Part shown: positions 6,437 through 42,042 of the stretch, one piece after another
How positions within the stretch are numbered: the stretch's first letter is position 1
Layout of the letters: each line of letters starts with the position of its first letter
Assembly: GCA_029559035.1 (NCBI GenBank)
Contig: JAKQCT010000078.1
Coordinates: forward strand, 1 to 64,000
Reading direction: 5' to 3'
Length of the DNA stretch: 64,000 bases
DNA from: Acidobacteriota bacterium
GTDB taxonomy: Bacteria; Acidobacteriota; UBA4820
Notes under the pieces: model-generated
Databases searched by the model: none
What the model was told of the DNA's origin: nothing
What the model saw: the letters and a program-made list of their open reading frames with translations, nothing else
Made by a program: the position numbers and the translations under genes

Positions 6437-7834
6437 ATGGAAAAGTTCGATCTCACCGTTCTCGGCGGAGGGCCGGGAGGTTACGTCGCGGCGATCAGGG
6501 CCGCCCAGCTCGGAAAGAAAGTGGCGCTCGTCGAAAAGAAACTGCCGCTCGGAGGCACCTGCCTCAACGTCGGATGCATCCCATCGAAGGTGCTTCTGGA
6601 ATCGAGCGACCTTTATCACAAGGCCGAAAAAGAGTTTTCAAAACACGGCATCACGGTGACGGGAGCCTCGATGTCGATAGAGCAGCTCATGGCAAGGAAG
6701 AACAAGGTGGTCAAGGAACTGACGGACGGCATCATGATCCTGGTGAAAAAAGGCAACATCCATTTGATGAGCGGCTTCGGCAGGATCAAGGCGAAGGGTC
6801 TCGTGGAAGTGACGGGCGACGGAGGCATCGAAACGGTCGAGAGCCAGAATATACTCATCGCGGTCGGCAGCGAGCCTGTCGAGCTGCCGTTCCTTCCCTT
6901 CGACGGAGAGAAGATAGTGAATTCGACCGATGCCCTCTCCTTCGACAAAGTTCCCGGAAGCATGATCGTGATAGGAGCGGGGGCGATTGGCCTCGAGCTG
7001 GGCAGCGTCTGGAAGAGGCTCGGGAGCAAGGTCACCTTCGTGGAGATCCTTCCGAGGGTCGCGCCCTTTGCCGACAGCCAGGCGTCCAAGATGCTGGAGA
7101 GGGCTCTTATCGCCCAGGGGCTCGAGTTCAAGCTGGAGACGAAAGTGGTAAGCGGGGAAAAGACCGATAGCGGCGTAGTCCTGACGGTCCAGGACAAGAG
7201 CGCCGGCGAATCGAAGCTGGAGGCGGAGAAGGTCCTCGTCGCCGTCGGCAGGAGGCCCGCGACGAGGAAGCAGGGCTTAGAAGAAGTCGGCATACAGCTC
7301 GACGAGAAGGGGAGGATCAAAGTCGACGAAAACTTCGAGACGACGGTTCCCTCTGTATACGCGATCGGCGACTGCGTCGAGGGAGCCATGCTCGCGCACA
7401 AGGCGTCGGAAGAGGGCGTCGCATGCGTCGAAAAAATGGCCGGGCTCAGCTCGCATGTGAACTACAACGCCATCCCCAATGTCGTCTATACGGAGCCGGA
7501 ACTCGCGCAGGTCGGGATCACCGACGAGGAGGCGAAAGCAAAGGGCGTCGCGGTCAAGACCGGGAAATCCTACTTCAAGGGCAACGGCAGGGCGAAGAGC
7601 CTGATGGCGGAGGACGGTTTCGTCAAGGTGGTGGCGGACGCCGAGACCGACAAGCTCCTGGGGCTTCACATCGTGGGGCCCAGGGCTTCCGAGATGATCC
7701 ACGAAGGAGCGCTCTGCATCGAGTTCGAGGGGACCGCCGAGGACATGGGCATAATGTGCCACGCCCACCCGACCCTTTCCGAATCGCTGAAGGAAGCTGC
7801 GCTCGCAGTCCATAAGAAGGCGATTCACGGGTAA
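6437..7834 (+). CDS. lpd: Dihydrolipoamide dehydrogenase (E3)
   Basis: FAD- and NAD-dependent enzyme that reoxidises the lipoyl arm of E2. At 465 residues it has the standard length. The N-terminal FAD fold shows G-G-G-P-G-G. The redox-active disulfide is in G-G-T-C-L-N-V-G-C-I-P-S-K. The NAD fold shows I-G-A-G-A-I-G-L-E-L-G. The second FAD motif contains Y-A-I-G-D. The dimerisation domain closes with H-A-H-P-T-L-S-E, carrying the His-Glu catalytic pair. It may also serve pyruvate dehydrogenase or the glycine cleavage system, neither of which is in this window. Confidence 0.95.
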   Translation: MEKFDLTVLGGGPGGYVAAIRAAQLGKKVALVEKKLPLGGTCLNVGCIPSKVLLESSDLYHKAEKEFSKHGITVTGASMSIEQLMARKNKVVKELTDGIMILVKKGNIHLMSGFGRIKAKGLVEVTGDGGIETVESQNILIAVGSEPVELPFLPFDGEKIVNSTDALSFDKVPGSMIVIGAGAIGLELGSVWKRLGSKVTFVEILPRVAPFADSQASKMLERALIAQGLEFKLETKVVSGEKTDSGVVLTVQDKSAGESKLEAEKVLVAVGRRPATRKQGLEEVGIQLDEKGRIKVDENFETTVPSVYAIGDCVEGAMLAHKASEEGVACVEKMAGLSSHVNYNAIPNVVYTEPELAQVGITDEEAKAKGVAVKTGKSYFKGNGRAKSLMAEDGFVKVVADAETDKLLGLHIVGPRASEMIHEGALCIEFEGTAEDMGIMCHAHPTLSESLKEAALAVHKKAIHG

Positions 7835-41030: not shown

Positions 41031-41058
41031 TGACCTTTTCGGTCTCATCTGCTAATAT
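41031..41058 (+). promoter_or_regulatory. Promoter of tRNA-Gly and its repeat array
   Basis: TTGACC (41031-41036), a 16-nt spacer and TAATAT (41053-41058) lie 12 nt before the mature tRNA. Confidence 0.75.
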
Positions 41059-41070
41059 ACCCATTTTTGA

Positions 41071-41146
41071 GCGGGAATAGCTCAGCTGGTAGAGCACAAC
41101 CTTGCCAAGGTTGGGGTCGCGGGTTCGAATCCCGTTTCCCGCTCCA
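41071..41146 (+). tRNA. tRNA-Gly (GCC)
   Basis: A complete 76-nt cloverleaf with an encoded CCA end. The anticodon loop C-T-T-G-C-C-A in a five-pair stem gives GCC. Its T-arm and 3' acceptor strand are repeated twice downstream at 185-bp intervals. Confidence 0.96.
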
Positions 41147-41331
41147 TTTTTTATCCCACCAAAACGAGGATGAGAAACCGCGACCGAAGGGGGTTAACGG
41201 GGGAAGAAGCTTCCCCCGTGGTAAGTGCATCTTCGAAGTCGGGAAGGGATCTTGCAAGGGAAACCGGAAGGTTGCCCTTGCAGGAGCGGCGAGCCGCGAC
41301 GGAGGGGGTTCGAATCCCGTTTCCCGCTCCA
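41147..41331 (+). repeat. 185-bp tRNA-Gly-linked tandem repeat, unit A
   Basis: The unit starts right after the tRNA CCA and ends with a second copy of the tRNA T-arm, 3' acceptor strand and CCA (about the last 27 nt). It holds three hairpins. ACGGGGGAAG-AAG-CTTCCCCCGT is at 41197-41219. A 12-pair stem with one A-G mismatch and a GGAA tetraloop is at 41253-41282. GCGG-CGAG-CCGC is at 41286-41297. No gene is called: frames across it run through the tRNA itself. Confidence 0.9.
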
Positions 41332-41516
41332 TTTTTTATCCCACCAAAACGAGGATGAGAAACCGCGACCGAAGGGGGTTAACGTGGGAAGAAGCTTCCC
41401 CCGTGGTAAGTGCATCTTCGAAGTCGGGAAGGGATCTTGCAAGGGAAACCGGAAGGTTGCCCTTGCAGGAGTGGCGAGCCGCGACGGAGGGGGTTCGAAT
41501 CCCGTTTCCCGCTCCA
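41332..41516 (+). repeat. 185-bp tRNA-Gly-linked tandem repeat, unit B
   Basis: Nearly identical to unit A; I see two substitutions. The one in the third hairpin (C to T, at 41472) keeps pairing as a T-G wobble. The one at 41385 (G to T) breaks a pair in the first hairpin. It again ends with the tRNA-Gly 3' segment and CCA. Confidence 0.9.
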
Positions 41517-41555
41517 TTTTTTATCCCACCAAAACGAGGATGAGAAACCGCGACC
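41517..41555 (+). repeat. Partial third copy of the 185-bp repeat
   Basis: The first 39 bases of the unit recur after unit B, then similarity stops abruptly at 41556. Confidence 0.85.
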
Positions 41556-41606
41556 CGCATGAATTAATCCGAAGACGCTCTTCGCCAGGTGTGCACATTC
41601 TTTGAC

Positions 41607-41635
41607 TTGACAAATAGTCCATCAGAGCATATTTT
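41607..41635 (+). promoter_or_regulatory. Promoter of the response regulator gene
   Basis: TTGACA (41607-41612), a 17-nt spacer and TATTTT (41630-41635) lie 23 nt before the start codon. Confidence 0.75.
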
Positions 41636-41658
41636 AATTATCGAGAGAGAGGTGTGAA

Positions 41659-42042
41659 ATGTTCAGGAAAAAGGTAGTCCTGGTTATTGATGATAACCCA
41701 GACCTACTGGACATTGTGGATGCCATCCTGTCGAACTCCGGCTACATTGTCGCCAAAGCCCAGTCCGGAGAGAATGGAATCCAGGTCGCCAAGGGCCTTC
41801 ATCCGGACCTCATACTTCTCGACATCAACATGCCGAGAATGGACGGCTGGGAAGTGCTCTCGCTGCTGAAGGGGCAGGACGAGACTAGAACTGTCCCCGT
41901 CGCGATCTTTTCCGTCAGGACCGACCTGAGGGATAAGATGATGGGGTTTCAGAAAGGCGCGATCGATTATATTTCAAAACCCTTCCAGTACAACAGGCTT
42001 ACAGAGAAAATAGAAAAGATACTTGAAAGAACCTCCGCTTGA
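41659..42042 (+). CDS. Single-domain response regulator (CheY-like receiver)
   Basis: A 127-residue stand-alone receiver. The acidic pair is in V-I-D-D-N-P, the phosphorylation Asp in L-L-D-I-N-M-P-R-M-D-G, and the signalling Lys in S-K-P-F. The switch residue before it is Ser in I-F-S-V-R. No output domain and no kinase are adjacent, so it likely relays a signal from elsewhere. Own promoter and terminator make it monocistronic. Start codon preceded by GAGAGAGGTG. Confidence 0.92.
   Translation: MFRKKVVLVIDDNPDLLDIVDAILSNSGYIVAKAQSGENGIQVAKGLHPDLILLDINMPRMDGWEVLSLLKGQDETRTVPVAIFSVRTDLRDKMMGFQKGAIDYISKPFQYNRLTEKIEKILERTSA

Follow-up and report, generated by a model that had tools for sequence, protein, structure and literature searches.

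The tandem repeats behind a tRNA-Gly gene of an Acidobacteriota bacterium belong to a previously unnamed family of structured gene-end elements. The array lies in a stretch of 64,000 nucleotides (contig JAKQCT010000078.1, positions 1 to 64,000), referred to here as the window. In the reading that we prefer, with a probability of roughly 0.65, a small, structured mobile element without an ORF, which enters at a gene end and duplicates that end, makes up the array in two full tandem copies and a third of another. To our knowledge, there is no class of element with inverted and direct ends that both derive from the target. A search of the open-access literature, with the closed literature outside its scope, returned nothing on such elements. 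The newness rests on the occurrence of these target-derived inverted and direct ends at unrelated genes, and not on the unproven guide function considered below.

The Array at tRNA-Gly(GCC)

The host gene, tRNA-Gly(GCC), is located on the plus strand at 41071-41146. ARAGORN and Rfam (RF00005, 71.2 bits) both identify it, and the initial annotation had described it as complete. Tandem Repeats Finder places an array at 41121-41555 (period 185, 2.4 copies, 99% matches) with a score of 856, and the runner-up array anywhere in the window scores just 79. In the register of this program, unit 1 (185 bp) spans 41121-41305, unit 2 spans 41306-41490 and a partial third unit spans 41491-41555, all on the plus strand. 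Unit 2 differs from unit 1 at 2 of 185 positions. The partial unit contains a copy of the tRNA 3' end, a spacer and the segment A' described below, stops exactly after A', and matches unit 1 without mismatch over its length; counted from after the CCA, it is the 39 bp at 41517-41555. The two near-identical units and the 39-bp third copy recognized earlier are thus confirmed, and so is the observation that every full unit closes with the T-arm, acceptor strand and CCA of the tRNA.

Two properties had been overlooked. One is the presence of A', a reverse complement of the variable loop and T-arm, in each unit, and the other is the occurrence of the same element at numerous further genes, both in this genome and in relatives. 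In unit 1, A' (GGATGAGAAACCGCGACC) is found at 41168-41185 on the plus strand, with further copies at 41353-41370 (+185) and 41538-41555 (+370). In each unit, this segment is close to, although not exactly, the reverse complement of the variable loop and T-arm of its own tRNA. Pairing places the complementary target segment, GG|TCGCGGGTTCGAATCC, at 41115-41132 on the plus strand of the tRNA gene, and every unit carries it in antisense. The left edge of the duplication at this gene is projected to 41116|41117. The core follows on the plus strand at 41171-41301 in unit 1, where it terminates in CCGCGACG and scores 63.7 bits with covariance model R2, and at 41356-41486 in unit 2 (53.4 bits). The copied 3' end of the tRNA, called B, comprises the T-arm, acceptor strand and CCA. 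It abuts the first core at 41302-41331 on the plus strand; the next copy is at 41487-41516.

The folding of 41071-41555 is stronger than that of shuffled sequences (z = -6.7), as is the folding of one unit (z = -3.6). No known RNA family in Rfam covers the units, even at permissive thresholds up to E=10. Long ORFs run across the tRNA and the repeats on both strands at 41045-41543 (MERETGFEP.., SGKRDSNPRP..). ORFs that run over tRNAs are typical spurious protein annotations. Elsewhere in the window, the minus strand at 169-524 encodes an RNase P RNA (class A, 315 bits).

Structure of the Core

The core consists of three hairpins, P2, P3 and P4, that show compensatory changes. On the plus strand of the window, P2 is found at 41197-41219 in unit 1 and 41382-41404 in unit 2, P3 at 41253-41282 and 41438-41467, and P4 at 41286-41297 and 41471-41482. 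Covariation in an alignment of 8 sequences made without reference to structure was 0.353, compared with 0.209 in shuffles. An alignment of 63 sequences, which was fitted to the model, gave 0.368 compared with 0.146 in shuffles (0/500), and slid controls of this alignment drop to 0.07-0.15. Cells with double changes numbered 239 in the 63 sequences and 71 in shuffles. Covarying hairpins of this kind suit either an RNA or a folded single strand of DNA.

Distribution of the Family

The family comprises dispersed ORF-less elements with a core of about 130 nt in Acidobacteriota, namely Thermoanaerobaculaceae and relatives. The genome of the window has the core at 74-82% identity behind tRNA-Pro(CGG), tRNA-Gly(TCC), tRNA-Asp and the tmRNA gene, and a worn copy behind tRNA-Gly(CCC). 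At each of these loci, the end copy comes from the gene in front, and A' is antisense to that same gene. In relatives of the same family, the element is present behind tRNA-Pro(GGG), where it is also tandem. A divergent core, type II, follows tRNA-Ala(CGC), tRNA-Ala(GGC), tRNA-Pro(TGG), tRNA-Gly(CCC) and tRNA-Asn in relatives, and occurs as three tandem copies behind tRNA-Pro(TGG) in the genome of the window.

The initial annotation had proposed a search of related genomes and a model built from the units. tRNA-Gly(GCC) carries the element in nine genomes, and model R2 finds copies in 12 of the 13 genomes of the order. Among 59 checked copies, 29 lie no more than 1 kb behind a tRNA or tmRNA. 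Most of the remaining inspected copies are at the ends of protein genes (thiolases, lpd, a fumarase-like gene, an ntrC-like regulator and an rlmB-like gene, names that are a reading of the translated ends), and two inspected copies sit at gene starts. With model R1 and strict filters, matches in 396 genomes of the phylum were confined to this order. One scan of GTDB genomes with the DNA pattern of the type I core gave 4 matches, of which only that in a Thermoanaerobaculum MAG is at a tRNA; the others are without a tRNA and look like chance. Our search found no longer copies carrying an ORF or gene. If our reading is right, numerous copies without annotation should exist behind tRNA and housekeeping genes.

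Several other repeats were seen in these genomes. In one relative (G002), many contigs break inside the element soon after a tRNA (L054, L058, L065, L114, L125 and L134), and a common spacer module (CCCAAAGAAGGGGG..) begins a few bases past the CCA. Together, the breaks and the common module suggest near-identical recent copies. In the genome of the window, a different, AT-rich tandem unit of 147 bp at tRNA-Leu(TAA) also has copies ending in the tRNA 3' end (L036 1614-1980, C54), without a type I or type II core. At tRNA-Ala(CGC) of the same genome, two downstream copies of the tRNA 3' end accompany yet another hairpin-rich core (L026 1501-1890, C62). Three relatives (G004, G005 and G006; L066, L067 and L068) contain an intergenic repeat that is dispersed in up to 18 copies per genome. 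It measures about 200 bp, has terminal hairpins and CTAGTGT/ACACTAG ends, and partly resembles the Rfam family RF02937. This repeat was considered as a member of the same family through RF02937 and rejected, since the two share the P2-like part only.

Target-Derived Ends and the Junction

The anatomy of the element is constant. The core ends in GCGACG, and the very next base opens B, the copy of the host gene end, which is about 25-84 bp long (26-76 bp in the protein-gene cases). Immediately 5' of the core is A', which reproduces in inverted orientation the part of the gene around the left edge of the duplication. Of 51 tested copies, 38 have a B that exceeds the 95% null. In 27 of these 38, A' complements the gene sequence at B's left edge (p<0.05; 25 of them p<0.01). 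Several of the copies that failed sit inside tandem arrays, where the test took the previous unit. Some weak copies miss the A' or the B test. The match of A' is specific to the gene in front. When 59 T-arm segments were compared, no segment fitted A' better than that of its own gene in 15 of 18 tRNA and tmRNA elements. The own-gene scores summed to 188, compared with a permutation mean of 144 (sd 6), and this sum was reached in 0 of 100000 permutations.

Proteins and tRNAs alike show a left edge of the duplication that resembles G|CCGCGG. Aligned on the end of the core, the protein-gene junction reads NNG|CCGCGGC, with G at -1 (12/12), C at +1 (11/12) and +2 (10/12), and G at +5 (10/12) among the loci, which include orthologues of one gene in different genera and are not all independent. 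The tRNA junction, GG|(T/C)CGC(G/T)GG, is a variant of this motif at the border of the variable loop and the T-stem. A' crosses the junction, covering roughly -3 to +7 at protein genes and extending as far as +20 at tRNAs. Because A' spans the junction and B begins at the end of the core, both ends of the insert copy the target, the left one inverted and the right one direct. At tRNA-Gly(GCC), A' is recognizable across genera while the adjacent spacer loses all likeness.

Occupied and Empty Sites

Sites that hold the element in some genera lack it in others. The lpd gene is occupied in two genomes of the order (G005 and G009) and empty in three others (G004, G006 and G007) and in the genome of the window itself (window 7570-7828). 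In G009 (L161 1501-1657 and downstream), the only differences over the reading frame between the displaced end of lpd and the gene copy are synonymous changes and the stop codon (TAA/TGA). Either the displaced end served for some time as the functional end of the gene, or allele exchange followed the insertion. Such a pattern is not predicted by a simple recent duplication. At some loci, the second B is worn while A' matches the gene.

Proposed Mode of Insertion and Alternative Explanations

These elements are most likely small non-autonomous mobile elements with target-derived ends. As is general for transposable elements, one core is found at unrelated sites, the target is duplicated and empty sites exist; the support for mobility comes from the comparison of occupied and empty sites and not from observed movement. 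The element would enter close to the end of a gene, at a site resembling G|CCGCGG. The gene end, often with downstream sequence, would be duplicated, and the copy joined to the gene body would be complete, so that the gene keeps working. The inserted core would bear the inverted target copy at its left end and abut the second B at its right end. B has a fixed left edge and a variable right edge, which suggests that the break is staggered and that one of the cuts, at the junction, is sequence-specific. The variable length of B is unlike most transposases. Arrays may lengthen when further elements enter at the junction already used, or through unequal crossing-over.

The core may be moved by an enzyme supplied in trans. 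None was found among the partners looked for, which were a reverse transcriptase, a Y1 transposase and an ORF in longer copies. Y1_Tnp is present in 10 of 13 genomes, and G001 and G003, both with copies of the element, gave no match to it. The RVT_1 reverse transcriptase was not found in G000-G003 (drafts, 88-97% complete). A target-primed retroelement, which calls for a host reverse transcriptase, was rejected on the basis of these four drafts.

The role of A' allows two forms of the mobile-element reading. A' may direct the cut by pairing, recognizing the target as a guide, in a geometry comparable to the internal guide sequence of introns or the guide at the foot of the hairpin in IS200/IS605. 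Alternatively, A' may be a scar, in which the displaced strand end folds back at the junction and copies it, while B is a filled-in staggered break. This variant differs from the mobile-element explanation only in the role of A'. It would account for A' and B matching every target from the start and both beginning at the junction, and palindrome-like target sites (GCCGCGGC, T-arm) would favour the fold-back. The survival of A' across genera at tRNA-Gly(GCC) beside an unrecognizable spacer suggests retention, however, and A' is likewise retained in E. coli at tyrT and proK in several species. We regard a scar as rather unlikely. The persistence of A' favours a kept function, and gene conversion could also maintain it. 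On a bolder and still doubtful view, the elements are minimal mobile RNAs or DNAs that use A' as a guide into conserved gene ends and spare the host gene, with E. coli rtT as a long-known but unrecognized example.

The initial annotation proposed that the units are co-transcribed with the tRNA, as in rtT, that tRNA 3' enzymes free structured small RNAs from them, and that the array is kept for that function. The covarying hairpins suit RNA, the plan matches E. coli rtT, which is annotated as RNA, and no terminator-like site was found between the tRNA and unit 1 in the window, where read-through is possible. Co-transcription and release do not hold generally, however. Most tRNA-Gly(GCC) orthologues have a terminator-like hairpin with a T run between the CCA and A', and in the proK array of Enterobacteria every unit includes a terminator between the CCA and the element. 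Because terminators intervene in both cases, the element is usually outside the tRNA transcript. Many copies are at protein genes, two of them at gene starts; these give tRNA enzymes nothing to process, and the duplicated end is the end of a reading frame. The RtT model also fails to match the array, and we consider this explanation improbable.

The elements might instead be remnants of phages or islands that integrated at tRNA 3' ends, with the B copies as attL and attR. Each unit is indeed flanked by direct repeats of the tRNA 3' end, and the genes hit are of the kind used by integrases. Against this, a single covarying core is combined with a different attachment sequence at each gene, the units are without integrase or cargo, none of 50,697 phage records gave a match, plasmid matches are limited to tRNA ends of 32-34 bp, and A' is left unexplained. 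A phage attachment remnant, which the initial annotation had named as a possible source of the region, is therefore very improbable. It had also named an assembly duplication. An assembly artefact or a chance local tandem duplication would fit units that are 99% identical in a draft genome of 99 contigs, but it is contradicted by independent arrays of different units, found at further loci and in additional genomes, and by arrays in complete E. coli genomes; it is almost certainly wrong.

If the preferred mobile-element reading is true, there is a bacterial mobile element that takes both ends from its target, one as a direct copy by which the gene is rescued and the other as an inverted copy fitting the junction. 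The tyrT repeats of E. coli, a decades-old finding with no consensus on their role, would also gain a purpose or an origin. Should A' be a guide, the family would represent a natural sequence-directed insertion system that spares genes.

Comparison with Known Systems

The closest parallel is the rtT array of E. coli (tyrT, RF00391; also proK of Enterobacteria). The likeness, noticed in the initial annotation, is real and goes deeper than was noted. In both arrays, tandem units straight after the tRNA end in its 3' end and hold a hairpin core and an A' that is antisense to the T-arm of its own tRNA across the junction. A' scores 16 against its own tRNA and 10-11 against others for tRNA-Tyr, 13 and 10 for tRNA-Pro, and 14 and 10 for tRNA-Gly; at the second rtT locus, proK, A' fits tRNA-Pro. 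Annotated rtT units at tyrT number 0-5 among sampled E. coli genomes (NC_000913 tyrT and 5426 E. coli genomes). The RtT family is characterized by an RNA of about 171 nt that is freed from the tRNA transcript. The Rfam search with the rtT model that the initial annotation had called for gave no match in 41060-41660 up to E=10, whereas E. coli copies score 133-138 bits, and models R1 and R2 score rtT weakly (best 9.9 bits, E 0.03). The junction is in the T-loop in E. coli and at the border of the variable loop and T-stem in the window family. Copies at protein genes occur in the window family, whereas none was seen in E. coli, where the search was not systematic. The window array is built like rtT, but it is not called a member of RtT, as homology of the cores is not demonstrated by covariance models. 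It would be a new variant of rtT if rtT repeats are counted as an already known kind.

Clostridiales-2 RNA (RF02937) has a P2 hairpin and flanking letters like those of type II cores (25.3 bits at L054), a resemblance that covers only part of the core. Membership in RF02937 was rejected, since the scores of 13.9 bits in the window, 25.3 at L054 and at best 30.7 in relatives compare with a gathering score of 58.6. The order of a group I intron (5' exon, P1 loop, guide, core, 3' exon) parallels that of A, loop, A', hairpins and B, with A being the target segment in the gene. Unlike in a group I intron, the core is too small and the gene is already intact without splicing; a group I intron was rejected as there is no Rfam group I match at E<=10.

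Integrative elements that restore the 3' ends of tRNA or protein genes also leave an intact host end, place the displaced copy at the far side and use conserved ends. In contrast to them, the family described here is about 130-190 bp long, is without an integrase, combines one core with many unrelated attachment sequences, and has the inverted A'. Small non-autonomous repeats such as MITE and REP/BIME are likewise short, ORF-less, hairpin-containing and present in many copies. Unlike them, this family has a long and variable target duplication (25-84 bp), ends that come from the target and no terminal repeats of its own. The duplication of a gene end, which leaves the gene intact, together with an inverted copy of the insertion site appears to be a new means by which small genetic elements establish themselves in a genome.
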